22,265 nt of DNA from a virus, in IMG/VR virus record IMGVR_UViG_3300010296_001367, positions 1 to 22,265 of that record; one strand, given 5' to 3'. A program made the translations under genes and the position numbers. The first letter of the stretch is position 1. The number at the start of each line of letters is the position of its first letter. Under the pieces are notes generated by a model, which saw nothing but the letters and a program-made list of their open reading frames with translations, did not search any database and had not been told where the DNA came from. Of the stretch, positions 1 through 22,265 are shown in pieces.

Positions 1-1335
1 ATAGTACGTAATCCGAACATTCGTATTATGTGGGTAGGTGGTAACGAAGACATAGCTAAGAACGCAGTATCAGCCGTGCTAGACCACTTAGACAGCAATG
101 TAACATTGATAGAAGACTTTTGTGGTCCTGGTGCAGGATTTAAACCTGACACACGTAGTGGTAAGAATTGGTCACAAAATCAATTTACTGTTGCTACTAG
201 AACTGTTACTGGTATTAAGTCACCAACTATGGTTGCCGTAGGTAAAGGTGGCAAGATATTATCTCGTGACTGTGACTTAATAATTGCAGACGACATTGAA
301 GACCACAGTACAACAATACAACCTAGTAACAGAGAACATACTAGAAGTTGGTGGACTACTACCCTATCTTCACGTAAAGAAGAACATACAGCTATTGTTG
401 TTATTGGTTCAAGACAGCATCCTGACGACTTATATCATCACTTGTTAGGTAATGACCAATACGAAAACATTGTAGAGACAGCACACGATTTAGAATGCAC
501 TGAAGCAGAAGACGATATAGAACTACACAATGATTGTATGTTATGGGGAAATAAACGTACATACAAATGGTTGAAGTCACGTATGGCAGCAGCAGAGACA
601 ACAGGTGGCCGTAACGTGTTTGACATGGTGTATCTAAACCAAGCATACAGTGTTGGTATGACAATATTTAATTTAGAAGATATAGAAAATTGTTACAGGT
701 CTAACTTAACTATTGGACACATACCACATCAGAATTTACATTTAGTAGCAGGCCTTGACCCTGCATCTAGTGGACATCAAGCTGCATTTCTATGGGGCTA
801 TGACATTGTTAAAAAAGAATATTACATGATTGACAATGACAATAGAAAAGGTGGTGGTACTAAGGCTGCATACGAAGTTATTAAAGATTGGTTTGAAAAA
901 TATAGATTACGTGAATGGGTTATAGAAGAAAATGGTTTTCAGACTGCAATTAGACAAGATGAGAAGATAAAGCGACTTGCCTTAGAATGTGGTATTGTAT
1001 TAACAGGAACAAAGACTGGATTAAATAAACATGACCCTATGTTTGGAGTTGGTGCGATGAGTGAATTGTTCGAGGAGGGTCGTATACATTTACCAGTTGG
1101 CGATGGTATAAGTAGAGATAAAACAGGTGCTTACAAATCACAGTTAGTTTATTTTGATGGCAAACCACAAAATAAAAGAACTAAGCACAAAACTGACTTA
1201 GTTATGGCATCGTGGTTTCCTATGAAAGTTTTTAGAAGAATGACTAAAGAGAGGTCAGCAATGATAGGGTTAGATTACGTACCTAGTTTTGGAGACTGGG
1301 ATATAAGCGATTGGAACGAAGCACCTTGGCAATAA
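1..1335 (+). CDS. Terminase large subunit (5' partial)
   Basis: This is the ATP-driven DNA packaging motor and headful or end-cutting nuclease that docks on the portal. The reading frame is open from base 1, so the gene starts upstream and the Walker A region is outside the window; the first ATG at 28 is internal. Visible features are a Walker B-like DLIIADD (nt 274-294) and a likely coupling motif VVIGSRQHPDDLY around nt 400-435. A C-terminal RNase H-fold nuclease follows, with acidic residues at GLDPASS (Asp at nt 757), IEEN (Glu at 925-930) and KTDLVMA (Asp at 1195). The order ATPase then nuclease, and the portal gene immediately downstream (TAATG overlap), both fit the family. The small terminase subunit is not in the window. 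Confidence 0.93.
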   Translation: MVRNPNIRIMWVGGNEDIAKNAVSAVLDHLDSNVTLIEDFCGPGAGFKPDTRSGKNWSQNQFTVATRTVTGIKSPTMVAVGKGGKILSRDCDLIIADDIEDHSTTIQPSNREHTRSWWTTTLSSRKEEHTAIVVIGSRQHPDDLYHHLLGNDQYENIVETAHDLECTEAEDDIELHNDCMLWGNKRTYKWLKSRMAAAETTGGRNVFDMVYLNQAYSVGMTIFNLEDIENCYRSNLTIGHIPHQNLHLVAGLDPASSGHQAAFLWGYDIVKKEYYMIDNDNRKGGGTKAAYEVIKDWFEKYRLREWVIEENGFQTAIRQDEKIKRLALECGIVLTGTKTGLNKHDPMFGVGAMSELFEEGRIHLPVGDGISRDKTGAYKSQLVYFDGKPQNKRTKHKTDLVMASWFPMKVFRRMTKERSAMIGLDYVPSFGDWDISDWNEAPWQ

Positions 1336-3077
1336 TGAAAAAAAACGTTAAGACAATTATTGATAATGTCAATGCTTTAATGGACAACAACCAAGACCAA
1401 CAGGTAATGCGTTATCGCATTCGTTCTATTATGGATGGTGGCGTAGAAGGCATGAGGTCACTACTTGGTGCAAACATGGATAACATGGACATCGATACAT
1501 TACCTGCACCAAACCTATTAGTTTCAGGATTAGACAGACTAGCACAAAAAATATCAGGAGTTCCTGACATTCGTGTTGATAGAGTAAATGACAAAGACAG
1601 TGAACGTGCTAGAAAACGTGCAGAGAAAATCGAACGTATTGTTGCTTCTTATGATGAAAAACAAAAACTTAAAAATCAATTAGGACAAATATCTAGGTGG
1701 CTACCTGGTTATGGTTATTGTTCTTGGGTTATTAAAACAATTAAAGATGTAGATGGCAATTACTTTCCTTATGCAGAACTTAGAGACCCATACAACACAT
1801 ATCCTGGACACTTAGGTGCTAATCAACAACCTGATGAGATTGCATACGTAAGAAGAATACCTCTTTATAAGCTAACACAGATTTATCCTGAACATGCTCG
1901 TGCGTTACGTGATAATGAAGCTAAAGGTAAACAAGAACCAAATGGTGAAGGGTTTTACAATGCTCGTTTAGATAACGCTCACGAAGAATGGGAAAACGAT
2001 AATGGTAAAGGTGTCATAGTTGTAGAGTATTACGACGCAAGTGGTATGTACGTTGTAGTACCACACAAACGATTGATGCTAGATTTTGTAGAAAACCCAT
2101 TAAAGTCAGGACCACAATTTGTATTTGCTAAAAGATTTTCATTTAATGAACTTAAAGGTCAGTATGACCATGTACTAGGACTTATGGGACAAATGGCAAA
2201 GATAAACATTTTATCTACTATTGCTATGGAAGATGCAGTCTTTACAGAAACAAACATATCAGGTGAGTTAGAGAGTGGTCAGTATCGTAAAGGACGACAT
2301 GCTATTAACTATTTAGCACCAGGTACACAAGTTTCTAAACCAGTCAATAACTTACCGTATCAGTTATTTAATCAAGTAGATAGATTAGAAAGACAGTTGA
2401 GATTAGTTGCAGGTTATCCTGTTACTGATGATGCTCAATCCCCTAACAGTTTTGTTACTGGTAGAGGCTTAGATGAGCTTAATGCATCAATGTCTTTGAT
2501 GATAGGGGAGTACAGAAACATTTTACAAGATGCTTTACAGTCATTAGATGCTAAAAGATTAGAGATGGACGAACTGTTGTTTGATAAGTCCAAAGCATTA
2601 GTTGGTTATCGTAAAGGTTCTGCATTTGCAGAAACCTATAAACCTTCTGTTGATATTGCAAAGAACTATAGAACTAGAAGAGTATATGGTGTCATGGCAG
2701 GCTTTGATGAACCACAAAAGATTGTTACAGGTTTACAGTTACTACAAGCAAACATTATAGATAAAGAGACTTTACAAAATAATATGGACGGACTGGACAA
2801 CATACCAGTTATTAATGAACGTATTAGAAAAGAAAAAGCAGAAAACTTATTGTTTGAAACATTATTAGCTAGAGCTAATCAAGGTGATGCACAGGCAACT
2901 ATGGCAGTTGTAGAAATATATAAAAACCCTGATGATATGCAAACAATTTTAAATAAGTATTTTACTCCTGAAGAACCACAGATGTCACCTGAAGAAATGG
3001 CATTAATGGGACAACAGCAAATGCCTGACTTATCACAAGGTGGGTTAGCAGCATTAGCATTAGGACAAGGTGGATAA
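1335..3077 (+). CDS. Portal protein
   Basis: Encodes a 580-residue putative portal, the dodecameric ring at one capsid vertex through which DNA enters and leaves and to which terminase and tail attach. I recognise the portal pattern: an N-terminal helical region, then the PNLLVSGLDRLAQKISG segment (about residues 57-75), a mixed central region with YGYCSWVI and ELRDPYNTYPG, a long helical stem/crown region, and a Gln/Met/Gly-rich flexible C-terminus (MSPEEMALMGQQQMPDL). Length is typical. I chose ATG 1335, which overlaps the terminase stop as TAATG, over the in-frame TTG at 1311, because the overlap is the junction style of this operon. Position right after the terminase is the classical order. 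The family assignment is by pattern, not by search. Confidence 0.88.
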   Translation: MKKNVKTIIDNVNALMDNNQDQQVMRYRIRSIMDGGVEGMRSLLGANMDNMDIDTLPAPNLLVSGLDRLAQKISGVPDIRVDRVNDKDSERARKRAEKIERIVASYDEKQKLKNQLGQISRWLPGYGYCSWVIKTIKDVDGNYFPYAELRDPYNTYPGHLGANQQPDEIAYVRRIPLYKLTQIYPEHARALRDNEAKGKQEPNGEGFYNARLDNAHEEWENDNGKGVIVVEYYDASGMYVVVPHKRLMLDFVENPLKSGPQFVFAKRFSFNELKGQYDHVLGLMGQMAKINILSTIAMEDAVFTETNISGELESGQYRKGRHAINYLAPGTQVSKPVNNLPYQLFNQVDRLERQLRLVAGYPVTDDAQSPNSFVTGRGLDELNASMSLMIGEYRNILQDALQSLDAKRLEMDELLFDKSKALVGYRKGSAFAETYKPSVDIAKNYRTRRVYGVMAGFDEPQKIVTGLQLLQANIIDKETLQNNMDGLDNIPVINERIRKEKAENLLFETLLARANQGDAQATMAVVEIYKNPDDMQTILNKYFTPEEPQMSPEEMALMGQQQMPDLSQGGLAALALGQGG

Positions 3078-3280: not shown

Positions 3281-3686
3281 GCGAGGTGGAGATAGACAAC
3301 CTGCTAATCCTGCACCAGTAAGTGGTCCAGGTGCATTATCTCAAAGAACAGATGGTGGACCAGGTAGTGCAACACAGCCTATACGTAGAATACCTGGCGT
3401 AGATTATGGAGAAGGTAAACAGTTAGTAGAACAACAACAAGCTGCACCACTTCCTGCAGAACCTACTACTCCTTCACAACCAGTTGCTACACCACAACCT
3501 GCATTAAATAGAAATGTATTTAGACCTACAGATGTTCCTGGCGAAGACCCAAGAACAGCAGGTATTAATCCTGCAGAAGCAGCACCTGACAATACGCTAC
3601 TAGCACTTAAAGCTATGTTGCATGTTTCAGGTTACAATCCAGTAATTAGCCAGTTAATACATAATTATCAACAAAGAGGTTTATAG
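3261..3686 (+). CDS. Pro/Gln/Ala-rich disordered virion-operon protein
   Basis: A 141-residue protein of unknown function. I chose ATG 3261 rather than the in-frame GTG at 3252 because AGAAGGTG lies about 8 bases before the ATG. The N-terminus is strongly basic (MAKKRSRRGGDR) and could bind nucleic acid or an acidic partner. The middle is low-complexity and rich in Pro, Gln, Ala and Thr (about residues 55-115), so probably disordered. The last 30 residues (ALKAMLHVSGYNPVISQLI) look like a folded helical docking segment. It overlaps the preceding gene by 20 bases, and its TAG stop overlaps the GTG start of the giant gene (TAGTG). A tethering or adaptor role for the giant protein is possible but unproven. 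Confidence 0.7.
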   Translation: MAKKRSRRGGDRQPANPAPVSGPGALSQRTDGGPGSATQPIRRIPGVDYGEGKQLVEQQQAAPLPAEPTTPSQPVATPQPALNRNVFRPTDVPGEDPRTAGINPAEAAPDNTLLALKAMLHVSGYNPVISQLIHNYQQRGL

Positions 3687-6600
3687 TGGCATTTCATGGT
3701 TGGTTTAACGACGATGAGTTAGCAAACGAAAACGAAAAAAAAGAAGCTGCTCGTAAACAGTTTGACCAAATACTTGCATTTTTAGATTACGAAACAGCAC
3801 AAAATGCAGTAGAGATGTCAACTGTTTGTCCCAACCTACCTGCTGATGTTGTAGAAGCAGCAGCTTTGTCAGGCCTAACTGTTTATGACCCTGCGTTTGA
3901 AGATATTACTGACATGGTTACTGAAGAACAACAAAAGCAGTGGGAACGTGATTGGAACAAAGTACATGAAGAAAGTGGTTTTGATGAACCTATTATGGGT
4001 TTGTCAGAATTACTAATTAAAAAACCTGGTTATGTTGTTGATTTAATGTTAGAAGCAGGCGTTGAAGAATTGACAATGCTATATAGAGCAGCAGGTTACG
4101 CTGCTGTAAATGCAATACAAAGTAATAGATTGCGTAAAGGATATATAAAAGAAGGAGATTTATTTGCAGGCATACAAATATCAGAACAAGATTTAGTAAA
4201 CTACGACCCTGTTAATGCATGGAAAAAAGAAGGATTTAAAGGTTTACTACAAGAATATTCTGAATTGTTTTCTACTGCTAAAAACCAAGCAGGTACAACT
4301 ATATGGAGAGAAACACTTGCTACATTACGTGAAGGTAAACCATTAAACATAGACCCTGATAGAAAATTTATATTTCAAGGATTAAAACCTGAAGACGACG
4401 AACGATACAGAACATTATTAAAATTAGGTTATGAAGAGAATGAAGCAAAAAACGTTTATTACAAATATGCAGGAGTACCACTTAGAGCCGAAGGTTGGAA
4501 TGACCATGAGAGAACTTCTTTATTTAGGCCTAATCAAATTATGTACAGGCCAACAGGAGGCAGAAAACTTACATTAGGTTTTGACCCTAATAACTATTTA
4601 CACTTGCAACAACAAAGAATGCAAAACAGCCCTGACATGTTTGCACCTATCGATGGCAATAAAATGTCAAGATTTTTTCAAATGGTGTTTCGTGGTGCTA
4701 AAAATTTAGGTAGGTCACAAGTAGATTTTGTTAAATCGTTAAATCCTGGTATTACAGAGTTAGATGAAATACAACCAACAATACATTTTAGTAATGGTCG
4801 TATTACTGCATCAGAGATAGTACCACCAGGTACACCTGAATTTACAGCATTGTCAGGTGGTTTAGATGCTGTTACTACATTTAAACTAGACCCAACAGCT
4901 AAAGGACTTAAAGGGTTATCTAATTTAAGAAAATCGTTACGTACAATACATCCTGATGTTGTACAAGAAGGTATTGGTGTAAGAAGATTTAGAGATACAG
5001 TATTTAAACCTAAGTTAAATGACATTATTGAAAGACCTGATAGTTACAAATTATATGAAGCTACAGCAGTAGAACCTAATATTGGTGTGTATCAAAGATT
5101 ATTTCCACAATTACCATTTGAAAGTCAAGCATCACTTGCTGCTACAGAAGATGCATTACAAGCTAAACAAGTATGGTCAAAGATATGGGGTAGTGGATAT
5201 TTAAACGAAACACCTGTAAAAGGTGCAGATATTAGAAATGCAGTATCTCGTGCTATAGGTAATAAGTCATTATCTTTAAGACAAAGTGAAAATGTTGTAC
5301 AAAGGGGTCTAGGACAAGTAATAAGGCCTTTAGGAAACCCTAATGCTGCATATAGGCCACTTCGTTCTAAATTAGCAAAAGGCCTTAGAGATGACCTTAT
5401 ACTGCCTGCTAGAAACAAAATGAGGTTTATGACAGCTAAACCTATGCTTGCACCTGCAGAAATAGCAAATCCATTAGATGAGTTACTTAGCTTTAGTGGC
5501 ACAGTAAGGTCTGCTATGCCTACTTATATGCAAAGAATTATGAGTATTAAACCTGATGATGGTTTATCTGTAACAAATTTTGATGAAGCAGCTATGTCTA
5601 TTAGAAATCACTATGACAGCATGGGTGCAGATATAGAACGTGCAGAACCTTATTTAAGAAGATTATTAGAACTAGAACCAGGAGATTTAGGTGGTGTTAC
5701 TAGATTAGCTATAGATATTGGTAACGATACACAAGTATTTCTTAAAGGTCAGGGAGTAGCAGATGATATAGCATTTGAAGCATCAAGAATATTTGAAACA
5801 AGTTCACAGATACGTGCATACGGTAAAGACAGTTTATTTAGAGATTTACCTTTTGTAGGTATGCGTGAAGTTGAAGAGATACCTTATACATTATTAAATG
5901 GTGAAAAAATAATGGTAACTGTACCTTCTGCTAGTGGTTTAGTAGAAATGGCTAGTTTAAAAGCACCATTGCCACAATGGTCAGGAATTACTAAAGCATT
6001 GTCGAAAGTCTCATACGTTATGGATGGACAAGAAGGTAGGCAAGGTGTTCGTGGTTTAATGGATTATTACAAAGGTAATGCTAAAGCATTAAAAGATATG
6101 GGTTTTGGAGATTATGTAATATCAGGTACATACAAAGGTATTATTCCTAAAGGTATGTCACAAGGTCCTGTATCTTTACTTGCACAGTTTTATATGGGTG
6201 GAATATTTAAACCTTTAGTATTAATGCGTGCTGCTTGGTTTACAAGAGTGTTTTTAGAAGAACAAGCACGTATGGCTGTATCAGGCCTAGATACTATGTT
6301 TGTACATCCATTTAGATATATAACATGGATTAACTCACACAATAGTGAAGTACGTAATGCTATTAAGAATGGCGATGTAAAAGGACTTGAAAAGTTTAGA
6401 TTACGTTTTACTAGAGATAGCGACCTTAAAGACGTATTAGATTGGCAAGGTGCAATGAATGGTAACTTAGCTACTGAAGTAAACACAGGCCGTAAATCTG
6501 TTGCAGGGTTTAGAGGAGTAAATAGTAAGTTTGTAACAAAAGACTGGGTAGATGTAAAACCAGGAGAAGCAGGCCATACAGCTAATTTACAACACGAACT

Positions 6601-8950
6601 TATACAAATATTCGATGACCCTGTAGGTAGATATGTTGCTAAAAACCATTTAACTACACAAACTAGAGATTGGTTTAAATATTCTGATGAAGGTAAAAAA
6701 ATTAGAGAACGATTAGTACGTAATGGTGGAGATAGATTTGAAGATTTAATGACAGACGAAAAAGCTATGGATGCTTATTTAGATTATTGGGAAGCACGTA
6801 TTCGTTCAAAAACAGGTGGTTTTGATAGTTATACATACACACCTGGTGATGCATTCAGTTATAAATTTATAGAAGATACATCAGATGTTAATTTAAGAAA
6901 CTTTGCAGGTACAGGTAAAGCTATTCTAGGCAAAGGTGAAATAAGTGCTGCTAAAATTTCTAGGGCAGCATTGTCTAAAAACAATAAAACACTTGGTGCA
7001 TATTTAGAAGGCATGGGAGATTTACGAAATCGTATAGGTGTAGTTAAAGCACCTAGAGATGTTTCAGTAAATTTAACATCAGGACAAAAAGCTATAGGTA
7101 TGTTAGATGCTGTAGTAGATGTAGCATTTGAGTATTTGATGACAAAACCTAATACATATCTATCTCGTTCAGTTGCATGGAAACAAAACAACTGGGCTAA
7201 AATGGAAGACCTTATGCCACGTCTAAATCAACAAGGCAGACTTAGAGCATTAAAAGAAGCTAGAGATGCAGATATACCTAATGCTATGTATAAAAGATTG
7301 CAAGGTGCATCTAAGAAAACTGTTGAAGGTGTTGAACTAAATTATGATGAAGCAGAAGCTATAGCTAGAGCATACGCATTACACTCAACTAAATTACTTT
7401 TATACGATGCAGCTAAAAAACACAATATATCTGCAATAACTGCAAACATATTCCCATTCCCTGAAGTGTATATAGAGTTAGCTACTACATGGGGTAAGTT
7501 ATTTGCAAACAACCCTGCATCACTTGCAAGAGGAAACATGATAGTAAGAGGTGCTGAAAGTTCAGGAGATGACGGATTTTTCTTTCCTGACCCTAATGGC
7601 AGTGGAGAAGAAATGTTTGCATATCCAGGTAAAAACTTTTTAACACAATCAGTATTTGGTCCAGGTTCTAGGGTACAGATACAACCTGCAGGTTATGTTG
7701 CAGGTATAAACATGTTAGCTAGCAATATATTTCCTGGTATGGCCCCACTTTATGGTTTTGCAGCTAACAAATTATTACCTAAAAACGGTATAGGAGATGA
7801 AGCTAGAAAATTATTATTTGGAGATTTTCCTGCACCTGATACATTAGTACCACGTCCTGCATGGGCAAGTAAATTAATAACTGCTTTTAGTGACAGTCCT
7901 AAAGCACAAGAAGCTAGAGCATCTACTACAAACACAATATATAACTATGCTGCTGCAACAGGGTATAGAGAATACTTTAGAAGGCCTGACGGAAGCATTG
8001 ATGAAGTAGCTATGATGGAGTGGGCAAACGATAGTGCTGCGTTTATATATGCAATTCGTGGTATATCACAATTCTTTGCACCTACTGGATTTACACCTAG
8101 ATATTATATTGAAGATAAAGATGGTCAATGGTGGGCAAGTCAAATACTAGCTAACGAGTTTTATAAGATTAGAGAAGAGACAGGTGGAGATACCATTGCA
8201 GCTTACAATGAGTTCTTTGGCAAGTATGGTATAGAACATCCTTATCTAACTGCATCTACAACAATATCACCTGAAGGCCGTAGGTTTTACACAGAAGAAG
8301 GTAAAGCATGGGAAAGAGAATACGGCGATTTAATGAAAGAGTTAAATATAACAGGATGGTATTTGCAACCTGAAAGTCCATTTGATGAAAGAGAATGGCA
8401 ATTTGTATTTGAAGATATAAAGAGTGGAAAGTTAGAAGGTTTATCAAAAGAACAAAACGTTAGAAAAGTAAATGACACTTTAGGTTGGATACGATATACA
8501 AACTTTACACAACAATTAGAACGTTCAGGCGTTAAAGGCAACCAGTTAAGAATAGCTAAAGCATTATACAGACAGCATTTACGTGAGGAATTGCCAGGTT
8601 ATTTAGAAAATTATGGTGTTGCAGAAGCACCTACAGCAAAAGAAAAGTTATTTCAAATACAAACTAAATGGGCTAAAACTCCTGGTGTTAAAGATACAGA
8701 AGTTGGAAAAGCTGTATTAGAATATTTAGAATGGTGGAATATTATTAACGAGTATTCTACTGATTTAGGATTTAGTGAAGAATGGTGGCACACATCCACA
8801 GACGATAGGGCTGTAGTAATGAGACAAATGGCAATAGGTGCAGGTAAAGAGTTTATAAAAGCTGTACCTGATTTTGAATATGTATTTAGAGATGTGTTTC
8901 AAGGAGTGTTAAGAGACGATATACTAGAAGAAATAGGAGTTAGTGAATAA
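3686..8950 (+). CDS. Giant putative virion or co-ejected protein (1754 aa)
   Basis: A single uninterrupted 1754-codon frame starting at GTG 3686, which overlaps the previous stop as TAGTG and has an AGAGG Shine-Dalgarno a few bases upstream. No catalytic motif is recognisable. The first 300 residues are acidic and helical. Around residues 825-880 is a hydrophobic, aromatic stretch (GGIFKPLVLMRAAW, then FLEEQARMAVSGLD) that could be membrane-active or amphipathic. Residues about 1256-1365 hold a second distinctive region: FPFPEVYIELATTWGKLF, then FFPDP and FAYPGKN, then NMLASNIFPGMAPLYGF. These remind me of very large uncharacterised minor structural proteins in actinobacteriophages and uncultured marine phages. 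Its size and position after the portal suggest an internal or ejected protein, comparable in size to T7 gp16 or larger. Function is inference. Confidence 0.75.
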   Translation: MAFHGWFNDDELANENEKKEAARKQFDQILAFLDYETAQNAVEMSTVCPNLPADVVEAAALSGLTVYDPAFEDITDMVTEEQQKQWERDWNKVHEESGFDEPIMGLSELLIKKPGYVVDLMLEAGVEELTMLYRAAGYAAVNAIQSNRLRKGYIKEGDLFAGIQISEQDLVNYDPVNAWKKEGFKGLLQEYSELFSTAKNQAGTTIWRETLATLREGKPLNIDPDRKFIFQGLKPEDDERYRTLLKLGYEENEAKNVYYKYAGVPLRAEGWNDHERTSLFRPNQIMYRPTGGRKLTLGFDPNNYLHLQQQRMQNSPDMFAPIDGNKMSRFFQMVFRGAKNLGRSQVDFVKSLNPGITELDEIQPTIHFSNGRITASEIVPPGTPEFTALSGGLDAVTTFKLDPTAKGLKGLSNLRKSLRTIHPDVVQEGIGVRRFRDTVFKPKLNDIIERPDSYKLYEATAVEPNIGVYQRLFPQLPFESQASLAATEDALQAKQVWSKIWGSGYLNETPVKGADIRNAVSRAIGNKSLSLRQSENVVQRGLGQVIRPLGNPNAAYRPLRSKLAKGLRDDLILPARNKMRFMTAKPMLAPAEIANPLDELLSFSGTVRSAMPTYMQRIMSIKPDDGLSVTNFDEAAMSIRNHYDSMGADIERAEPYLRRLLELEPGDLGGVTRLAIDIGNDTQVFLKGQGVADDIAFEASRIFETSSQIRAYGKDSLFRDLPFVGMREVEEIPYTLLNGEKIMVTVPSASGLVEMASLKAPLPQWSGITKALSKVSYVMDGQEGRQGVRGLMDYYKGNAKALKDMGFGDYVISGTYKGIIPKGMSQGPVSLLAQFYMGGIFKPLVLMRAAWFTRVFLEEQARMAVSGLDTMFVHPFRYITWINSHNSEVRNAIKNGDVKGLEKFRLRFTRDSDLKDVLDWQGAMNGNLATEVNTGRKSVAGFRGVNSKFVTKDWVDVKPGEAGHTANLQHELIQIFDDPVGRYVAKNHLTTQTRDWFKYSDEGKKIRERLVRNGGDRFEDLMTDEKAMDAYLDYWEARIRSKTGGFDSYTYTPGDAFSYKFIEDTSDVNLRNFAGTGKAILGKGEISAAKISRAALSKNNKTLGAYLEGMGDLRNRIGVVKAPRDVSVNLTSGQKAIGMLDAVVDVAFEYLMTKPNTYLSRSVAWKQNNWAKMEDLMPRLNQQGRLRALKEARDADIPNAMYKRLQGASKKTVEGVELNYDEAEAIARAYALHSTKLLLYDAAKKHNISAITANIFPFPEVYIELATTWGKLFANNPASLARGNMIVRGAESSGDDGFFFPDPNGSGEEMFAYPGKNFLTQSVFGPGSRVQIQPAGYVAGINMLASNIFPGMAPLYGFAANKLLPKNGIGDEARKLLFGDFPAPDTLVPRPAWASKLITAFSDSPKAQEARASTTNTIYNYAAATGYREYFRRPDGSIDEVAMMEWANDSAAFIYAIRGISQFFAPTGFTPRYYIEDKDGQWWASQILANEFYKIREETGGDTIAAYNEFFGKYGIEHPYLTASTTISPEGRRFYTEEGKAWEREYGDLMKELNITGWYLQPESPFDEREWQFVFEDIKSGKLEGLSKEQNVRKVNDTLGWIRYTNFTQQLERSGVKGNQLRIAKALYRQHLREELPGYLENYGVAEAPTAKEKLFQIQTKWAKTPGVKDTEVGKAVLEYLEWWNIINEYSTDLGFSEEWWHTSTDDRAVVMRQMAIGAGKEFIKAVPDFEYVFRDVFQGVLRDDILEEIGVSE

Positions 8951-9945: not shown

Positions 9946-9953
9946 ATGTAGAT

Positions 9954-12900
9954 ATGCAAAAACCTGATTTAAAACCAAGTCCTTTATTAGACCCTAAGTT
10001 ACTAAGAACATTACCTATAGCTACAAGAATGTATGTTATTGGTAATTTTGTTCGTGATTTATTGCAATACACACAAAGCAAAGAAATAGAATTATTTAAA
10101 GGTAACACTCTTGTTAACAATCAACCAACTCCTGCAGCAAAAACAGTTAATGTAATTACTAAACCAAATAGTCCAAGAAGTTCTTTACCTAATGAAGTCG
10201 GTGGTAAACTAGCTTCAGCATTTTCTACACAACCTACTCCTATGTTACAAAGTTTACAAACTTACGTTACTAACGATGTAAACCCAATTAATTCTTTTTT
10301 TAACATGATTGCAGACCAAAATGATTTACGTGAACCTGTTGAAAATTTTCCTAACAACAACATTGTACAAAAAGTTGAGGAAGTATTAAACATTGCTGCG
10401 TCACAATTTGGAATAAATGTTGTTGATATCTTTAGAGAAGATGTAGCAACATTAAGTGATGCTATAAAACTATTTCAAGATTTTGTTAAATCAGAAGATG
10501 GAATTATGTTTAATCCTGCAATTTTAAGTAGCAAATTTCCTGAAGAAACTAAAAACTTCAAAGCTATTAAAAGTAAATTATTCAAATATCAGAAAGATGC
10601 ATTAAATACTTTGTATAGAGGTGTTGAAGCGTTAGAAAATTTAATGATACCAATACTCAATATGGAAGAAGGCCATAGTATAAACGACCAACGTTACAAT
10701 ATTAATAGCAAAAAACCTATTGCAGAAGGTACACCTATTGGTTCAATAATAGATGCAGGTGATGTTGTAGATAGAAATGACCCAGGTTTATTAAGAAATA
10801 TAAAAATACACAATAAACAACCAGTTGAAATGTTTTCTGCTTTACTTAATAATACAGCTACAGATGCTGTCAAAACATTTATACCTTATGCAGAGCGTAT
10901 AGAAAACGGTCTTGAACGACATACTTTATATCCTACTGCAAAACAATTTCACGAAATACTAGAAGATTTAGGTATTGATGTAGATACAAAATTTAGAAAA
11001 GAAAATCGTAAAAAGTTATTAGAACAAGCATACGATGAATTTATAAATATTGTAAATACAACTGAAAGTATAGAAGATATAGAACAAAGACCAGGCAAGT
11101 TGCAAAAAGTATTTAGTAATTTATTTGCTGCACACACAGATGGAAAAGTAATACCTAATTTTGATTATCAGTTATTTTCTAATGTTGAAAGATTTAAAGA
11201 CCAAGGTTTTTTATTAGGAAGAAAAGCAAGATTAAGTGAAGCATCTGCAAAAGAAAAAGCTGTTATATTTTTACATGAGATATTGTATGACCCATCAGTA
11301 AATAATAACTTTCAAAATATAGAAAAAATACTTGCAAGCATAGTTGCTGAAAGCAAGTTAGATGTAAATTACTATGACAAAGAAGGATATAACTTTGATA
11401 TATTTGGTAAATCAAATTACAACGACGTTAATGCAAATAAAGCGTGGTTAGCAGATACATTTGTTAATAGTGTTAAAGGAAAAAAAGCATTAATAGAAAA
11501 CCTTAACCCTGAATTTGGTAGTTTACTATATCCAAATAAAGCAACATATAGTAAATACGCAGACACAATTAAAGATGTACCTGAAAATGTTAAATCATTA
11601 ATACATACATACGCAGAAAACTTTGGTATAGATTGGATGGCAGACAACGATAACTTTAAACAAGTTATGGATGCTATACAAAAAGAAGACCCTGCTGCAT
11701 TTGCAAAAATAAATAAATATTATAATTCCGTAGAATTTAGAGATAGTGTTAAAAACAGACGAGAGTTATTTAAGTTTAAACCTACTAACTGGCAAGATAA
11801 AACAAATGTTTATGTGTATAGACAAGTACAAAACTATCTATCATCACATCCTAACTTAGACAAAACTAAATTTACAGATGAAGTAATTAGGTCAGGTATA
11901 AATTTTGATGGCACTATAGACGACACAAGTAGATTGTTTAGTTTACTCGAAGAGTTAAGAGATGTAAGTCCTGAATTTATATTGGCACTTGAAGGTAAGA
12001 TATCAAGCATTATGACTAATGCACAAGAGGCAGTGCAAGTAACACAAAACGCTTTTCAAGGATTAGATGCAAAAGTCATACCTGCACTTATGAACAAGAA
12101 ACATAATGTTGCAAGTTTAGGACAAATGATGGTAGCTGCACAACAAGTATTAACAAATCACACACATGCCACACTGCTAGATGTAGAAGGTATATTTTTT
12201 AATTTACAAAAAAATCCAAATGCAAATCTTATAAAAGCTGTTAACTTTAGTCCATTTGATATATACAGCGATATGTTTATACCTGATGGACAACTTATAG
12301 GTCAAGGATATCCTGATTTAGAGTACGGAATTGGTAGCGAAAAATTTGATTTTTCGGAAGTACAGTACTTAGACCCACTAGATGTACCTGAAGACAGAAA
12401 ATTTACTTTATTTGGAATTATAGATGATTTAATGATGAACAAAGTACGTATTGCAGAAGATGCTAAATATCCTGTAATACTTGATGATGAATTTGCAGTC
12501 TTAGACAGAAACACAATTATTGATGAAATGTTATCAGAACTACAAAAAGTTATAGCAGACCCTGCGATGAGAGAAGATTTTGTTAAATTAGTAGTTAGCA
12601 GTTATGGTGATACCCTTCCACCTATTGTAGAACAATGGTACAACAAAGAAAGTTTAAAAAGTCATAGAAATAGTACATTAAGATTTCCTAAAAAATTTAG
12701 TGAAAAATATTATGGGGATGTAGACGCTGTAAGACATGGTGACAAGTTTAGTACAATGGCAGAGTTTCCTAACGGAGAAAAAATAAACGTTAAATTTCCT
12801 GGCATGACAACTACTTATAGTTCACAATTTAATTTTTTAAATGATACAGTAAACGGACAAGACTTTACTAACCATGTATTTATTAGTGCTGCTAAAGAAT

Positions 12901-15900
12901 TATTTGCACAAGGTTACGAAGATATAGCAACAAGTTTGCTTGACATAGAAGATGTTGAAGTAGATATATGGAGACAGTTTGATGATGATGTACTAAAAGA
13001 ATTAAAAAAGATACTTATAACAGAACTTGACAGAGGCGATGGTGGAGAGATTGCTATGATTACTACAACAACTGGTGGCGAAAGTCCTACAGTTGCAACT
13101 AAAAACACATTAAGAACTGCATCATTTGACACACTAGGACATGCTGTATTAGAAGGACAAGGTGCTAGAGCCGAATTAATGATAGCTCAAGACAATATGA
13201 AAGTAGTAGATTTTAAAAAATGGACACCTATTACTAGAAACAATGCTTTAGGTAATTCAATATTATTTATACCTAATCAAGGAGAAAAAGTTATAAATGG
13301 TGCTTTGCAACAATTACAAGACCCATTAAATCCTCCTAACATTATTAATTTAACCGAACAACCACAGTCAGGATTAGGTGTAAAACTACAAGAAGTTGTG
13401 GGAACTGCTGAAACAGGAGAAGAGTTTGTGCCTGAGTATCCATTTAATTGGTTAGATAGAGGTGCAACAAATAGAAACATACATCCTGTAAACGGTAAAT
13501 ATCAAATAGGAAAACATGTTTCAGCACATGCTAATACTTTGATAGAAGGCAGAACACCTACACAAATACCTATTGAATTATTACCAACTGGTTTAAGCGA
13601 TGAAGTGGTTAGTCAATATTTAAAAAATAAAGATGTTAACAACATAGATGATGTTGTAGATAAAAAGAATTTTGTCATACAGACAATGCAAAAAGCAGCT
13701 AAAGATATCCAAAATTTTCTTAAAGGAAGTGAAGATAGTGCAGATGTATCAGTGGCATATATAAAAGTTGATGAGCTTTTAAAATTTGTTGAAGATAACA
13801 GGGCATATAGAGAAGCACAAGGCAGAACATTGGGTTTAGGAAACATAAATAATATAGCACAAAACATTATTAAGAATGGTTTTAAACAACCTGATATTGG
13901 TTTAGGTCAAACGGTATCAGGATATACTTCAAGTTTTACAAATTTATTAAAAGATTTACCAGTAGTAAGATTTAATCCAAACAATAACGCTATATTGTTA
14001 CAAGAAGGTAATCACAGAGTTCAAGCAATGAAAATGTTAGGCATTGATTATATTCCAGTGTTTTTTCAGTTAGACCCACAAACTTTAGAAGGCCGTGCTG
14101 CTAATAAATTCTCACCATTAGGTGCTTTAGGTACAAACGAAGATGTTACTGTCAGAACTTCAGGTGGTACGCAACAAGCAGGGTCATATTATGACGAATT
14201 TATACGAAACAATGCTAATTGGAAAAGATTAGCTAAATATATACACGACCCTGAAATAAATAAAAATATGTTTACACCATTGTCAACAGTTTCAGATTAT
14301 ACGCTACATCCTAATTACGGAAGTCTTGCAATGTATCAAAACTTGTATCTAACTAATGAAGTGCAACTAAGACAATACAGTTTTTTAGAACCTTATTCAA
14401 TAGATAAAGCAACGAAAATGGAAAGAGCTATAAACAACAATATGAAATATTTTCGTGACACTGCTACTACAGCTTTTGAAAATTTAGACGTAGCTGTAGA
14501 AGGTATAAAACAATGGTTTATGAAGCATGGTACAAGACAAGACAAAGAAGCAGTACAGGAATTTGCTAGACTGCATCCAACAAAACAAGATTTAGCAGCG
14601 TATTTTAATACAATACAAAACGTGGAAGACCCTCAAAACATAGGTATTACTGACATTACCTCGCAAAAATTAAACATGGAACTTAGTAAATATGAAACAA
14701 AATTTAAAACAAGTAAAGAAAATACATTGTTAACACCGTCTGTTAGTGGTGAGTATAGAAATGAAGCATTGTTGCCTGTACAAGATATTGACATAGAACT
14801 TACAACTAAAGGACAAATGAAAGTAAAGCAAGTTGTTAACAGTCATCACAGTGTATTTAAAAAAGAAGCAGACATGACTACAAAATTTTTAGAACAAAAT
14901 AAAGATATGCTTGGTCCAGGAAACATAGTATTACCAACTGAAGAATTAGAGTACGTAAATATAAATCCACAAAAACTAGAAATAGTAGGTATTAATGCTG
15001 CAAATGATATACACAGTGCAACATTTGATGACTTGTTACAAGTTACTGTAGATGAAGGCCTTATGTCTATGGAAGATGCAGTAGCTTATAAAACTGCACA
15101 GTCTAAATCAAGAGTACAAAACTTATTTAAGACAGCAATGACTAAAAGTAAGTTTCACAAAAATAGATTAGCTTATGGATTTAACACAATGGCTGTCTAT
15201 GGATATACAAAATTAAGACAGGGTGCTGCAGCAGTAGCAGATGATTTTAAATTTAACACAGTTAAAGGACAACAGTTAAGTGCATTTAATACTACTAAAA
15301 CAGCAAAAGGTTTAAAGACTGCAGGTAGAGTAGCAGGACAAGTATTAGATATATTCTTAATTCCTGCAGAAATACTTTCATTAGCTACAAATACTATTAA
15401 ATATTATGATGACCCTGACTTTGGTGCAGCTACAGGATTAGGTAAGTATGGTATTGGTCCTAAAGAGATATTTCAAGAATTATTACCAGGTGATATAGGA
15501 CAAGAAGATAAATTTAGAAATAATAATGCAGCTACAGCATTAGTTAAAGGTGGTATAAATGGTTTAGCATGGTTAGCAATGAATACTGCGTATAGAGACC
15601 TTAGAAATAATCCTGAAGAGTTTTCTCCAATGGTACAACCTGCAGATTATAACCCTGAAACTCATGGTAAAAATTTAAGACAATTATATTTTGGATTTGA
15701 ATTTAATCCACGTGGTATCTTAGATAATCTTGGTGGAGAAAAAACATTTATAGAAAAGAAAAAACAACCTTTCTTACAAAATACAATTTACTCATTAGTA
15801 AGAGGACTAGGTCCTAACGGTGGTCTAGGTCCATTAGTAGAAGATGGTAAATATATAGGTGATGACAAATTAGGAGAACGTAAAACAGATTTGTATGAAA

Positions 15901-15941
15901 AGATAGGTAATTTTGTTAATATGGAAGAAGACAATGGCTAG
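9954..15941 (+). CDS. Giant protein with internal ParB-like domain (1995 aa)
   Basis: The largest gene here. ATG 9954 lies 8 bases after the previous stop with no strong Shine-Dalgarno, so coupling is likely. The first 1000 residues are polar, Lys/Asn/Asp-rich and mostly helical with no motif I can name. Residues about 1260-1375 resemble a ParB/sulfiredoxin-type fold: a strand (SVAYIKVDELL), a helical part with GNINNIAQNIIKNGFKQPDI, then VVRFNPNN, LLQEGNHRVQAMKMLGI (Glu1351, His1354, Arg1355) and IPVFF. Such domains bind DNA or nucleotides and recur in multi-domain phage proteins delivered with DNA (the 'polyvalent protein' theme). Residues about 1785-1860 include hydrophobic helices (VAGQVLDIFLIPAEILSLA and GGINGLAWLAMNTAY). 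An ejected, DNA-associated role is inferred. The ParB-like call rests on the EGNHR-A-LG-IPV pattern. Confidence 0.75.
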   Translation: MQKPDLKPSPLLDPKLLRTLPIATRMYVIGNFVRDLLQYTQSKEIELFKGNTLVNNQPTPAAKTVNVITKPNSPRSSLPNEVGGKLASAFSTQPTPMLQSLQTYVTNDVNPINSFFNMIADQNDLREPVENFPNNNIVQKVEEVLNIAASQFGINVVDIFREDVATLSDAIKLFQDFVKSEDGIMFNPAILSSKFPEETKNFKAIKSKLFKYQKDALNTLYRGVEALENLMIPILNMEEGHSINDQRYNINSKKPIAEGTPIGSIIDAGDVVDRNDPGLLRNIKIHNKQPVEMFSALLNNTATDAVKTFIPYAERIENGLERHTLYPTAKQFHEILEDLGIDVDTKFRKENRKKLLEQAYDEFINIVNTTESIEDIEQRPGKLQKVFSNLFAAHTDGKVIPNFDYQLFSNVERFKDQGFLLGRKARLSEASAKEKAVIFLHEILYDPSVNNNFQNIEKILASIVAESKLDVNYYDKEGYNFDIFGKSNYNDVNANKAWLADTFVNSVKGKKALIENLNPEFGSLLYPNKATYSKYADTIKDVPENVKSLIHTYAENFGIDWMADNDNFKQVMDAIQKEDPAAFAKINKYYNSVEFRDSVKNRRELFKFKPTNWQDKTNVYVYRQVQNYLSSHPNLDKTKFTDEVIRSGINFDGTIDDTSRLFSLLEELRDVSPEFILALEGKISSIMTNAQEAVQVTQNAFQGLDAKVIPALMNKKHNVASLGQMMVAAQQVLTNHTHATLLDVEGIFFNLQKNPNANLIKAVNFSPFDIYSDMFIPDGQLIGQGYPDLEYGIGSEKFDFSEVQYLDPLDVPEDRKFTLFGIIDDLMMNKVRIAEDAKYPVILDDEFAVLDRNTIIDEMLSELQKVIADPAMREDFVKLVVSSYGDTLPPIVEQWYNKESLKSHRNSTLRFPKKFSEKYYGDVDAVRHGDKFSTMAEFPNGEKINVKFPGMTTTYSSQFNFLNDTVNGQDFTNHVFISAAKELFAQGYEDIATSLLDIEDVEVDIWRQFDDDVLKELKKILITELDRGDGGEIAMITTTTGGESPTVATKNTLRTASFDTLGHAVLEGQGARAELMIAQDNMKVVDFKKWTPITRNNALGNSILFIPNQGEKVINGALQQLQDPLNPPNIINLTEQPQSGLGVKLQEVVGTAETGEEFVPEYPFNWLDRGATNRNIHPVNGKYQIGKHVSAHANTLIEGRTPTQIPIELLPTGLSDEVVSQYLKNKDVNNIDDVVDKKNFVIQTMQKAAKDIQNFLKGSEDSADVSVAYIKVDELLKFVEDNRAYREAQGRTLGLGNINNIAQNIIKNGFKQPDIGLGQTVSGYTSSFTNLLKDLPVVRFNPNNNAILLQEGNHRVQAMKMLGIDYIPVFFQLDPQTLEGRAANKFSPLGALGTNEDVTVRTSGGTQQAGSYYDEFIRNNANWKRLAKYIHDPEINKNMFTPLSTVSDYTLHPNYGSLAMYQNLYLTNEVQLRQYSFLEPYSIDKATKMERAINNNMKYFRDTATTAFENLDVAVEGIKQWFMKHGTRQDKEAVQEFARLHPTKQDLAAYFNTIQNVEDPQNIGITDITSQKLNMELSKYETKFKTSKENTLLTPSVSGEYRNEALLPVQDIDIELTTKGQMKVKQVVNSHHSVFKKEADMTTKFLEQNKDMLGPGNIVLPTEELEYVNINPQKLEIVGINAANDIHSATFDDLLQVTVDEGLMSMEDAVAYKTAQSKSRVQNLFKTAMTKSKFHKNRLAYGFNTMAVYGYTKLRQGAAAVADDFKFNTVKGQQLSAFNTTKTAKGLKTAGRVAGQVLDIFLIPAEILSLATNTIKYYDDPDFGAATGLGKYGIGPKEIFQELLPGDIGQEDKFRNNNAATALVKGGINGLAWLAMNTAYRDLRNNPEEFSPMVQPADYNPETHGKNLRQLYFGFEFNPRGILDNLGGEKTFIEKKKQPFLQNTIYSLVRGLGPNGGLGPLVEDGKYIGDDKLGERKTDLYEKIGNFVNMEEDNG

Positions 15942-17160: not shown

Positions 17161-17161
17161 T

Positions 17162-18501: not shown

Positions 18502-18753
18502 GGTGTCCTCCTTTCTGTCCCCTTATCTTAGTTGGTGAGGGGTATTCCTTGACACCACTATATATAGTGGTATGCTTATGGTAAGTCGTTGCGTGGTCCG
18601 ACAATAGACCTGCACTCTGACACAAGCTACGGTGTGTGTTAAGTATTTCAATTCCGTATGTAAGGCATTGCGAGAAGGCAATAGAATTCGTAATGTTATG
18701 TTTTAATTTCTATTCCCACCCCACATTATTCCGACGTAGTGTGTGTATTGGTG
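18501..18753 (+). ncRNA. Candidate structured RNA or 5' leader before the scaffold gene
   Basis: The interval between two virion genes is visibly richer in G+C than its flanks and folds into successive hairpins. These are: TGGTGTC (18501-18507) with GACACCA (18551-18557), enclosing CCCCTTATC-TTAGTT-GGTGAGGGG (18519-18542); the palindrome 18554-18571; GTCG/CGAC (18585-18588/18599-18602); TGACACA/TGTGTTA (18618-18624/18635-18641); ATTGC/GCAAT (18667-18671/18678-18682); and CACATTAT-TCCGAC-GTAGTGTG (18722-18743), capped outside by CACC/GGTG (18717-18720/18750-18753). Several stems need G·U pairs that exist only in + strand RNA (18519-18542 has two, 18722-18743 has two, 18618-18641 has one), which argues for a + strand transcript. 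The 7-bp outer stem and the palindrome compete for 18554-18557. I do not recognise a known RNA family; no tRNA or riboswitch matches. It could act as a leader controlling scaffold/capsid translation or as a free RNA. Confidence 0.5.
18549..18576 (+). promoter_or_regulatory. Putative sigma70-type promoter with palindromic spacer
   Basis: TTGACA (18549-18554) is a perfect -35 box, followed after 16 bases by TATGCT (18571-18576), a 4/6 match to TATAAT. The spacer is almost entirely a perfect 18-bp palindrome, ACCACTATATATAGTGGT (18554-18571), which could be an operator for a dimeric regulator or an RNA hairpin. Predicted transcription would start near 18583, giving a leader of about 200 nt before the scaffold ATG at 18782 and allowing separate expression of scaffold and capsid. 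Confidence 0.45.
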
Positions 18754-18781
18754 TTCAAAGTCGAGATACGAGGTAAAAATT

Positions 18782-19237: not shown

Positions 19238-19241
19238 AATT

Positions 19242-19246
19242 AGGAG
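19242..19246 (+). promoter_or_regulatory. Ribosome binding site of the major capsid gene
   Basis: AGGAG, ten bases before ATG 19257, within an A/T-rich unpaired stretch. Together with the site before 20800 it is one of the clearest + strand Shine-Dalgarno sequences here, and it decides the capsid start. Confidence 0.7.
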
Positions 19247-19256
19247 ATAATTTAAA

Positions 19257-20387
19257 ATGGCAAATATTTCGTTAACAAACAATACGTTATATGCACAAAA
19301 TATCAATAACTTTACTGGCGAATTGTTTAAAGTTGGTGGTCAAAGAACACCTTTCACATCTGCTGTTGGTGGTATCAGTGGTGGTGGCAAAGTTATTCAA
19401 TCTACATTTTGGCAATTCCAGGTAGAAGATAACGCTGTCATTACCTCAGAACCAACAAAAGGACAAGAAGGTTCTACACCTACAGAATATCTTGGAAGAG
19501 ATAGAGCAGCATATACTTATGCAACTCAAATTTTCCATAAAGGTGTACAAATGACTTACACAGCTTTAGCATCCACACAAAATCAAAATCCTTTGACACT
19601 TAGTGCTAACATTGTTAACCAATCCGATGGAGATGGTACAACAACTGCAGGTGGTGCATTAGGATTTTTTGGTGGTAGTCCAGTAACTGATGAGTTTGCT
19701 TTCCAAATGGAAAAAGCAATGGAAAAACTAGCAAGAGAAGTTGAGTGGTTTGCATTCAACGGAACTTATTCTGACGGTGCTAATGTAACACCTGGTTCAG
19801 GTACACGTGAAATGCGTGGTATTTCTGAATGGTGTTCATTAAACGCTAACGCTGACAATGCTACTGCACCAGTTGCAACAGGTGGTAACATCTATTACAA
19901 CGACAGTGCAGGAGACGGTTCAGGTGCTGCAAGAGTTCTTTCATGGGACGCTATTGCAGGTGGTATGAAGAGATTGTATGATGCTCATGCACCTCTTACT
20001 AACCCTGTTCTCATTGTTAATCCAAAGCAACTCTTAGACCTCAATAAAGAGTTATTAAATAACTCATTGAGTGGAACACTAGCAGCTATCTTACCAAGAG
20101 ATAGAAATGTTGGTGGTGTCGATATTGACACAGTTGTAACACCATTCGGTTCATTAGGTATGATGGTAGTTGACCCTAACATCCTTCCTGCTGACGAAGC
20201 ATTCATCTTAGACTTGGCTTACATTAACCCAGTCTTTACAAATATCCCTGGATACGGAACAGTATTCGTAAGAGATATTGACCAAGATGCAAATGCAAGA
20301 ATTGGTAAAGCAATTTATATGGAGATGGGATTTGAATTTGGTCCTCCTTCATACCACTTGAAATTTATTGATGCTGATAGTGCATAA
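19257..20387 (+). CDS. Major capsid protein (HK97-fold, DUF5309/SU10-like)
   Basis: A 376-residue putative shell protein. It follows the scaffold by 19 bases with a clear AGGAG ribosome site. The pattern resembles the DUF5309 (SU10-type) major capsid group: an N-terminal arm with TPFTSAVGG (residues 32-40), a QEGSTPTEYLGRDRA stretch, YATQIFHKGVQMTYTA, then the spine helix ending AREVEWFAFNGT (about residues 159-170), TREMRGISEW, a central domain with VLIVNPKQLLDLNKEL, and the C-terminal DIDQDANARIGKAIYMEMG strand region. Codon use differs mildly from the neighbours, with more C-ending codons (GCTGAC, AACATC, TTC), as expected for the most highly expressed gene. An intrinsic terminator follows 24 bases after the stop. 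The exact family is by pattern only. Confidence 0.87.
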   Translation: MANISLTNNTLYAQNINNFTGELFKVGGQRTPFTSAVGGISGGGKVIQSTFWQFQVEDNAVITSEPTKGQEGSTPTEYLGRDRAAYTYATQIFHKGVQMTYTALASTQNQNPLTLSANIVNQSDGDGTTTAGGALGFFGGSPVTDEFAFQMEKAMEKLAREVEWFAFNGTYSDGANVTPGSGTREMRGISEWCSLNANADNATAPVATGGNIYYNDSAGDGSGAARVLSWDAIAGGMKRLYDAHAPLTNPVLIVNPKQLLDLNKELLNNSLSGTLAAILPRDRNVGGVDIDTVVTPFGSLGMMVVDPNILPADEAFILDLAYINPVFTNIPGYGTVFVRDIDQDANARIGKAIYMEMGFEFGPPSYHLKFIDADSA

Positions 20388-20411
20388 ATAAAAAATTAAG
20401 TAATCAAGATT

Positions 20412-20441
20412 AGGGTGGAACTCCACCTCCACCCTTTTCTT
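20412..20441 (+). terminator. Intrinsic terminator after the major capsid gene
   Basis: AGGGTGGA (20412-20419) pairs perfectly with TCCACCCT (20428-20435) across an 8-base loop, followed by TTTCTT. GGTGG can alternatively pair with the nearer CCACC (20423-20427) in a smaller hairpin, so two folds compete. It separates the abundant scaffold-capsid transcript from the connector genes. Confidence 0.8.
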
Positions 20442-20442
20442 G

Positions 20443-20459
20443 TGCTATAGTTTAAATTA
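20443..20459 (+). promoter_or_regulatory. Putative extended -10 promoter, leaderless start
   Basis: TGCTATAGT (20443-20451) is an extended -10 element (TG-n-TATAGT, 5/6 to TATAAT). Transcription 6 to 8 bases downstream would begin at or right by the ATG at 20459. There is no Shine-Dalgarno before that ATG and no recognisable -35 box, which would fall inside the terminator. This fits a leaderless mRNA. Confidence 0.5.
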
Positions 20460-20791
20460 TGAGTTTACAAAAAATAGTAACAATAGACGTATCAGAAGAT
20501 GCAAGTAATTCAACCAGTGTAAAGGCTGAAGGATTGCTATTATCAGGCATTAAGTTTCCTGCAACAATGACAGGAACTACTATTACATTCGACCATTCAG
20601 AAGACAATACTGCATGGGCAGACGTAAAAGAAACAGATGGAACTGATGTTAGCTATACCGTATCAGCAGGAGATGTTGTAAGAGTTGACCCTAGTGGTTG
20701 GGCTTTTGCATCAGAAGGTTGGTTAAGAATTACATCTGATGGTACTGAAGTAGCCGATAGAGAAATAAAATTATTCTTTAGAAGAAGTTAG
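20459..20791 (+). CDS. Small beta-rich virion protein, possible capsid decoration or head-completion
   Basis: A 110-residue protein, nearly all predicted beta strand: KIVTIDVSEDASNS, then GLLLSGIKFPATMTGTTITF, DHSEDNTAWADVKETDGT, VSAGDVVRVDPSGWA, WLRITSDGTEVADREIKLFF. This alternation (a 'G-I-x-x-P' strand, a 'TF-x-x-S-x-D' strand, an Asp-x-Asp-Gly turn, a terminal R-x-I/L-x-L-x-x strand) matches a common small phage and prophage protein found next to capsid genes, often left as hypothetical. The function is not settled; capsid decoration or a head-tail joining role is inference. It has its own putative leaderless promoter after the capsid terminator and sits 8 bases before the connector gene. 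Confidence 0.72.
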   Translation: MSLQKIVTIDVSEDASNSTSVKAEGLLLSGIKFPATMTGTTITFDHSEDNTAWADVKETDGTDVSYTVSAGDVVRVDPSGWAFASEGWLRITSDGTEVADREIKLFFRRS

Positions 20792-20799
20792 GAGAGCCA

Positions 20800-21807
20800 A
20801 TGAGTACAACTATTGGTGACCTAGTTGATAGGACATTTAGAGAATATCTTGAACCTATGGATGACATTGTTAGTTATACAACACTAACTACTGCCATTAA
20901 TGATACAGATACAGAAGTAGTATTTAATGGTAACCTGTTATCCGTAGAAGAAGAAGATGCACTTGATGCAGGTACAATTATAGAAATAGGTCAAGAACTT
21001 ATGATATGTACTGACCTTAATGCAGTTGCAAATACAATAACAGTTACACGTGCAGCTAGAGGAACAACTGCTGCTTCACATTCTATAGGAGATTTAATAA
21101 AAATATCACCTGTATTCCCACGTAAAAATGTATTTGATGCTGTATGTGACCAAATTAAAAACTTGTTTCCTACATTATTTGCAGTAGAAACTTTAACTGT
21201 ATCTACATCTGATGGTTATACATTATTAGGAACTTACGACACACCAGGTACACATAATTATTTAGTGTCAGTATTAAAGGCTATATCTCAATATACAGAT
21301 TTTACAGCAGGTGCAGATACAACAACTACATTGTTTTCACCTGTACAGGTAGAAATAGTACAGTTACCTAATCCATTTACATACACAGATGATACAGGAA
21401 CTGAAAGAACAATTACTTACACTTCAGGACCTAATCAAGTTATGGCGTTACAGTTTTATAATATTAATCAAGGTCACACTGCATACGTTACATTCAAAAA
21501 AAAGTTTGTTGAACCTACTGCAGAGACAGATACATTAACAACCGTTGGCTTAGAAGATGAATACGAACCTATTATTATGGCAGGTGTTGCTGCACAAATG
21601 ATGTCAGGTAGAGACATACCTACTGCAACTGCAGACTACATATCAGACCAAATGTCAATACAAAACTTTCCAACAGGTTCAGCAGCAAGTATCAGAAATT
21701 CATTGTTAAGATATCAACAAGTATTATTAAACCAAGCAAGAAAGTATTTAAAAGCTAAATATCCTGATGCTGTAGTAATAAATGGTGTTAATTCAGGTAT
21801 ACAATAA
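20800..21807 (+). CDS. Putative head-tail connector/adaptor protein
   Basis: A 335-residue protein starting at ATG 20800 with AGGAG (20790-20794) five bases upstream. It opens with GDLVDRTFREYLEPMDD. A small beta domain follows with EIGQELMICTDL, TITVTRAARGT and SHSIGDLIKISPVFPR (about residues 60-108), then a helix DAVCDQIKNLFPTLF and a beta-rich middle. The helical C-terminus (PIIMAGVAAQMMSGR, LLRYQQVLLNQARKYLKAKYP) resembles the helix bundle of gp15/gp6-type adaptors. I recognise the RA-RGT/H-x-x-GD pattern from actinobacteriophage and marine-phage proteins in this position. Its place after capsid and before a tail gene supports a head-tail joining role. The stop overlaps the next ATG as TAATG. 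Confidence 0.68.
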   Translation: MSTTIGDLVDRTFREYLEPMDDIVSYTTLTTAINDTDTEVVFNGNLLSVEEEDALDAGTIIEIGQELMICTDLNAVANTITVTRAARGTTAASHSIGDLIKISPVFPRKNVFDAVCDQIKNLFPTLFAVETLTVSTSDGYTLLGTYDTPGTHNYLVSVLKAISQYTDFTAGADTTTTLFSPVQVEIVQLPNPFTYTDDTGTERTITYTSGPNQVMALQFYNINQGHTAYVTFKKKFVEPTAETDTLTTVGLEDEYEPIIMAGVAAQMMSGRDIPTATADYISDQMSIQNFPTGSAASIRNSLLRYQQVLLNQARKYLKAKYPDAVVINGVNSGIQ

Positions 21808-22265
21808 TGCCTCGTGTAGCTACCACAATCAATATATCTAACCCAAAAAGATATGGGTATGATGTAAGAATAGATGAAATACTACTTCGTTCTGCTGTTG
21901 GTCCTGGTAGAGAGATGCAGATACAATCATCTGATGTACAAGAAGGTCAGATAAATGTTAAACAAAACCCTGAAGATTTTACATCTAACTTAGGTCGTAT
22001 CTATTCAAGAAATAACTTTACAGGTGGACAAGGATTAGATACAGCACATAGAGCTAATGGTACTCCTAAAGATACAACAAGATTTTTTGATAGCAAAGGT
22101 GTAGATGTATTTCATGGAGATGATGAAACTTCTTATCATGTCCATTTACTACATACTATGGAAAGTAAAGGTTTAACTTTTACAGGTACAGAACAATATG
22201 TTATTAGAACAACAAATGGCAATCTTTATGTTAGTGATGTTCAGACAATATATTTAAGTACAGAT
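21807..22265 (+). CDS. Putative tail protein, possible beta-propeller/fibre (3' partial)
   Basis: ATG 21807 overlaps the connector stop (TAATG). The frame stays open to the end of the window (153 codons seen). The segment INVKQNPEDFTSNLGRIYSR, then GGQGLDTAHRAN, TRFFDSKGVDVF, is a pattern I associate with N-terminal domains of actinobacteriophage and marine-phage tail or fibre proteins. The last part, TFTGTEQYVIRTTNGNLYV with repeated strand-turn-strand units, looks like the beginning of a beta-propeller or similar beta repeat. The likely role is tail assembly or host binding. Length and C-terminal domain are outside the window. Confidence 0.65.
   Translation, partial: MPRVATTINISNPKRYGYDVRIDEILLRSAVGPGREMQIQSSDVQEGQINVKQNPEDFTSNLGRIYSRNNFTGGQGLDTAHRANGTPKDTTRFFDSKGVDVFHGDDETSYHVHLLHTMESKGLTFTGTEQYVIRTTNGNLYVSDVQTIYLSTD

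Follow-up and report, generated by a model that had tools for sequence, protein, structure and literature searches.

Introduction

The avoidance of restriction sites by prokaryotic viruses has been well described (Rusinov et al. 2018, PMC6286503), and in each of the 46 phages infecting hosts that encode the enzyme, GATC was found to be under-represented (PMC6286503). The phage described in this work is a striking instance of this known phenomenon. As in the cases reported there, short recognition sites, including GATC, have been lost from the genome of a DNA phage. It differs from them in that its family shows the total loss of several 4-5 bp motifs at once, in sets that vary between relatives, and in that the family is uncultured and has no known host.

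Two further systems bear on the comparison. The first are the MT-A70 methyltransferases of phages (PF05063, phrog_359), of which 350 records exist in cultured phages and one of which is carried by relatives of our phage. Within the family, the presence of this enzyme accompanies the return of GATC, whereas in the cultured phage Venkman a similar enzyme coexists with the complete lack of the word. The second is the methylation of GANTC by CcrM in Alphaproteobacteria, which concerns the same motif that is missing here. The CcrM system differs, however, in that it involves no DNA cutting, in that the phage of a CcrM host that was tested is depleted in GANTC but not devoid of it, and in that no alphaproteobacterial link was found for the family.

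Results

The window, that is, the whole stretch of DNA analyzed (IMGVR_UViG_3300010296_001367), is a linear virus contig of 22,265 bp with a GC content of 0.349. It is about half of the genome of an uncultured aquatic tailed phage, since genomes of this kind would measure ~41-45 kb, a size suggested by the capsid genes repeated 41.2 kb apart in a contig of 52.9 kb (G020) and by the many contigs of 39-47 kb. A nucleotide comparison of the window with cultured phages gave no near match. Its main features are collected in Table 1; at the site of the two giant proteins, the proteins differ among relatives and reach up to ~2,850 aa.

Table 1. Features of the 22,265-bp window and the basis of each assignment.
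Feature	Position	Strand	Basis
GANTC-free and GATC-free stretch; CCAGA, CCAGC, GGAGC and CCGC also absent on both strands	1..22265		motif counts
Large terminase subunit, 5'-truncated at the contig end	1..1335	+	phrog_38 E=1.3e-45; Terminase_6C
Portal protein, basis of the family tree	1341..3077	+	homologous to Streptomyces phage portals; in 19/20 contigs compared
1,754-aa protein, function unknown, inside the avoided stretch	3686..8950	+	ORF; no PHROG or Pfam match
1,995-aa protein, function unknown, inside the avoided stretch	9954..15941	+	ORF; no Pfam match
Near miss GAATTC, 2-base spacer, retained	18684..18689	+	exact count
Major capsid protein, query for finding relatives	19257..20387	+	phrog_1328 E=1.4e-31
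Near miss GAACTC, 2-base spacer, retained	20418..20423	+	exact count

The first-pass annotation of the window had reported that GANTC is wholly absent where several tens of sites would be expected, and exact counting bears this out: GAATC, GATTC, GACTC and GAGTC each occur zero times in the 22,265 bp, against 69 GANTC sites expected from base composition, 40 from dinucleotides and 34.8 ± 4.4 from permutation of synonymous codons (minimum 22 in 500 shuffles). The avoidance is visible at the level of codon choice. Serine following Asp or Glu is encoded by AGY in 36 cases and never by TCN, as opposed to 131 AGY and 244 TCN elsewhere in the window (Fisher P = 7e-16), in agreement with the preference for AGT/AGC in Glu/Asp-Ser pairs that had been noted previously. 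GANTC is equally missing from the remaining two reading phases (0 and 0, with 3.8 and 9.5 expected). Furthermore, the avoidance is specific to the 1-base spacer, as had been proposed: GANNTC (34) and GANNNTC (39) remain, both near misses that had been pointed out are in place (Table 1), and the palindromes of the same shape and spacer CANTG, GTNAC and CTNAG occur at close to expectation. The phage was also assembled from another sample (L122), with 2 mismatches in 13,074 bp; this second assembly contains no GANTC, nor does a further fragment whose portal stretch is identical (L124). The absence of GANTC is real, complete and motif-specific.

These results also bear on the possibility that the polymerase of the phage removed GANTC through biased mutation or composition, or that its absence is an artefact of assembly. 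The low GC content would make GC-rich words rare in any case, but controls preserving codons and dinucleotides still predict 35-40 GANTC sites, the palindromes of the same shape are normal, family contigs of equal GC content have normal GANTC and the second assembly agrees with the first. Such an origin is largely refuted by these controls and we regard it as scarcely credible. Both an absence beyond compositional and codon constraints and a specificity to a recognition-type word over its neighbours, the marks of restriction-site avoidance, were thus found for GANTC.

GANTC is not the only missing word. GATC is gone from the window as well (exact count 0), just as the annotation had it, and so are CCAGA, CCAGC, GGAGC and CCGC, for which codon-preserving shuffles predict 31, 26, 16 and 18 occurrences, respectively. 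The set of missing words differs from relative to relative: one contig (G001) is without CATG and ACGT, and another (G005) is without ~30 words, including AAGCTT, ACTAGT, ATGCAT, CAATTG, TCTAGA and GGCC. Known restriction sites are enriched among the absent 4-mers (12/16, P=1e-4) and 5-mers (15/32, P=1.5e-3); the avoided words CCAGC, CAGCC, AGCCT, ACGG and CGTC are outside the list of restriction sites used. We considered motif loss per se as a mark of the family and rejected it, because it extends to aquatic phages unrelated to the family, with a median of 3 words missing in 25 control loci compared with 4 in the family. GATC, on the other hand, is lost in 121 of 128 family loci versus 2 of the 25 controls, although these had been found through an MT-A70 gene. 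What marks the family is therefore the loss of GATC, motif loss as such being common in aquatic phages, and the earlier view that losing both words is unusual in one phage finds no support: many motifs have gone from the relatives, and some from unrelated aquatic phages.

Relatives of the phage are very numerous among virus contigs (at least ~600 matching stretches) and the family seems widespread; no cultured close relative was found in the comparisons made. Over 138 portal groups, counted only if they comprised at least 5 kb, the distribution of GANTC is bimodal, with 17 groups having none and no group having one or two sites. On the portal tree, four changes of GANTC state are needed, and at least four independent changes are forced by well-supported branches. 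The word is missing along the whole length of contigs G005, G006, G061, G066 and G073 (39-43 kb) and G080 (35 kb), and relatives with normal GANTC are abundant. GATC is absent from 259 of 279 family loci, a tally that includes overlapping loci, and most relatives combine zero GATC with normal GANTC. The reverse combination is found in G073 (42.9 kb; L458-L460), a contig placed in the family by its terminase, portal and capsid, which has no GANTC and 131 GATC sites, with ~128 expected for each. The two avoidances are therefore separate. The proposal that two separate host pressures act on the phage stands as far as their separability is concerned, but not in their number, as more than two motifs are avoided. 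A search for a methyltransferase motif in G073 found none. Another contig, G075 (L469), resembles G073 in having zero GANTC and normal GATC, and the hosts of both presumably differ from those of their relatives.

Some relatives display particularities of their own. In G044 (36.8 kb; L467-L468; L210), all 13 GATC sites lie within the first 7.5 kb, and the boundary reflects either recombination or a chimeric assembly. A distant relative within a Rhodobacteraceae metagenome bin (L365) has 95 GATC sites in 16.6 kb, above the expectation for its length. A tryptophan halogenase gene is present in G010 (L100:7333-8475), with a homologue in G016.

An MT-A70 adenine methyltransferase (177 aa, E=2e-32) was detected in exactly one of 50 large contigs, G016, which is the sole near-complete contig among them with normal GATC throughout; G015, also normal in GATC, ends before the region where G016 carries the gene. 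The window is without an MT-A70 gene. All 12 MT-A70-bearing family loci, namely fragments from the MT-A70 scan that share the recombination genes of the family plus one from the exonuclease scan, contain GATC, the counts ranging from 8 where 24 are expected to 32 where 31 are. In the exonuclease-anchored set, GATC is present in 5/5 loci with MT-A70 and in 6/75 without it (Fisher 2e-5), these counts, like the previous one, being uncorrected for shared ancestry. The relief in G016 is confined to GATC, since GGCC, CCGC, CCGG, GCGC, ACTAGT, ATGCAT and CATATG are still absent from it. A return of the word where the phage can modify it, as restriction-site avoidance would have it, was thus observed for GATC only and by association, and no enzyme relieving the avoidance of GANTC was found. 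The pattern is the one to be expected if self-methylation relieved restriction, with the MT-A70 enzyme of the family presumably methylating GATC.

Such specificity is not general for this type of enzyme, because Venkman (L376), a cultured marine phage of a Methylophilales host, has a 57% similar MT-A70 and none of the 84 GATC sites expected in its 38.6 kb, and L353, a locus outside the family with an MT-A70 gene, has none of 60 expected. GATC-bearing relatives in which no MT-A70 was seen include the near-complete G073 and the partial contigs G015, G017 and others; for the lineage of G015 and G017, a methyltransferase not yet seen is predicted. MT-A70 as the sole route to GATC tolerance was rejected because of the GATC sites of G073, in which no methyltransferase motif was detected. 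Methyltransferases of the N6_N4 (PF01555) and D12 (PF02086) types were not found in the phage contigs searched, and a phrog_799-type methyltransferase was discarded as a factor, being present in 1 of 40 contigs and tied to no motif.

The same gene inventories allow one to consider whether nucleases encoded by the phages themselves cut these motifs in host DNA, so that their own genomes must lack them. The phages do carry a conserved Mre11-like nuclease together with other nuclease genes, and a self-protecting methyltransferase would account for the MT-A70 association. However, the nuclease common to near-complete contigs resembles those of recombination and is found in G016 and G073 as well, both of which have GATC, no gene was tied to any motif set, and the at least 10 motifs avoided per genome would demand as many enzymes in 41-45 kb. 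We consider this origin highly improbable.

As for the host, the terminase, portal and capsid proteins are closest mainly to those of Streptomyces, Mycobacterium and Propionibacterium phages, at an identity of only 24-28%, and the Mre11-like nuclease has 48% identity to a Streptomyces phage counterpart. Three metagenome-assembled genomes hold relatives: one of Flavobacteriaceae, one of Rhodobacteraceae and one of Actinomycetota (1.1 Mb), the latter with relatives on two contigs and with three WhiB genes. WhiB as a marker of actinophages was found in 0 of 50 phage contigs, and no tRNA genes were found that could serve as a clue. Venkman was dismissed as a host clue; it shares the loss of GATC, but the searches made revealed no structural kinship. 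These clues point weakly to actinobacteria, opposed by the other bins and the absence of WhiB, and we tentatively place the host among marine actinobacteria. An alphaproteobacterial, SAR11-like host, as suggested in the first-pass annotation, finds no clear support, the nearest cultured relatives being mostly actinophages at the low identity given above.

Discussion

A CcrM-type cause of the GANTC loss had also been put forward, and a wider version of it has to be weighed, in which orphan methyltransferases of the host, CcrM at GANTC and Dam at GATC, make the loss of the words an escape from methylation-dependent regulation, or from the nicking of unmethylated GATC by a MutH-like mismatch-repair system, and not from restriction. 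CcrM is known as an orphan methyltransferase that lacks a nuclease partner and does not cut DNA. Neither of the two phages of GANTC-methylating alphaproteobacteria that were checked lacks the word: the first 45 kb of phiCbK, a phage of the CcrM host Caulobacter, contain 67 sites against 206 expected, and the pelagiphage HTVC010P has 60 against 90. CcrM is a poor candidate for the agent, since it does not cut DNA and a third of the expected GANTC is still present in the part of phiCbK that was examined. That phiCbK is 3-fold below expectation nevertheless speaks for some pressure of this kind, a phage GATC methyltransferase would likewise relieve MutH-type nicking, and a freshwater Pelagibacterales genome and Chloroflexi are reported to have methylated GANTC (PMC6329791). 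Against it stand the total loss observed here as opposed to the partial one in phiCbK, the other absent motifs, for which there is no known orphan methyltransferase, the abundance of relatives with normal GANTC and the want of any alphaproteobacterial affinity found. Altogether, an origin in orphan methyltransferases is unlikely.

Restriction by the host offers the account that we favor, in which the loss was most probably driven by putative host nucleases that cleave GANTC, GATC and other words when these are unmethylated. In its favor are the missing GANTC with its codon signature, the bimodal counts, the repeated changes of state, the separability of GATC and GANTC, the association of MT-A70 with GATC and the enrichment of known restriction sites among the absent words. 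Speaking against it are the GATC-bearing relatives in which no MT-A70 was seen, the phages outside the family that have the enzyme but no GATC, the avoided words outside the list of restriction sites and the motif loss of unrelated aquatic phages. A HinfI-like activity in the hosts would cut unmethylated GANTC and a DpnII/MboI-like activity would, independently of it, cut unmethylated GATC, with further activities possibly acting at CCAGA, CCAGC, GGAGC and CCGC. An infecting genome with a site would risk being cut, synonymous and intergenic changes would then strip the sites to zero, and newly arisen sites would be purged in turn. The restriction systems of the hosts of each lineage would set which motifs go, and the sets of relatives would consequently differ. 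A lineage gaining an MT-A70 adenine methyltransferase might methylate its own GATC, the sites being tolerated again.

With about even confidence, the family could be read as a natural record of the restriction enzymes of its hosts, in which GATC restriction would be near-universal, GANTC and at least a dozen other specificities would come and go, the words absent from each phage would show which enzymes it encounters, and a captured methyltransferase would free one word. The value of the case lies in a word loss that is complete and lineage-specific, in its repeated origin and in what looks like the release of a single word in carriers of a methyltransferase. The family provides a natural test of avoidance versus modification as means of escape, with GATC present where the methyltransferase is carried and a GANTC state that has changed at least four times. 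If this reading is true, the words missing from uncultured phages could reveal the restriction specificities of their hosts.
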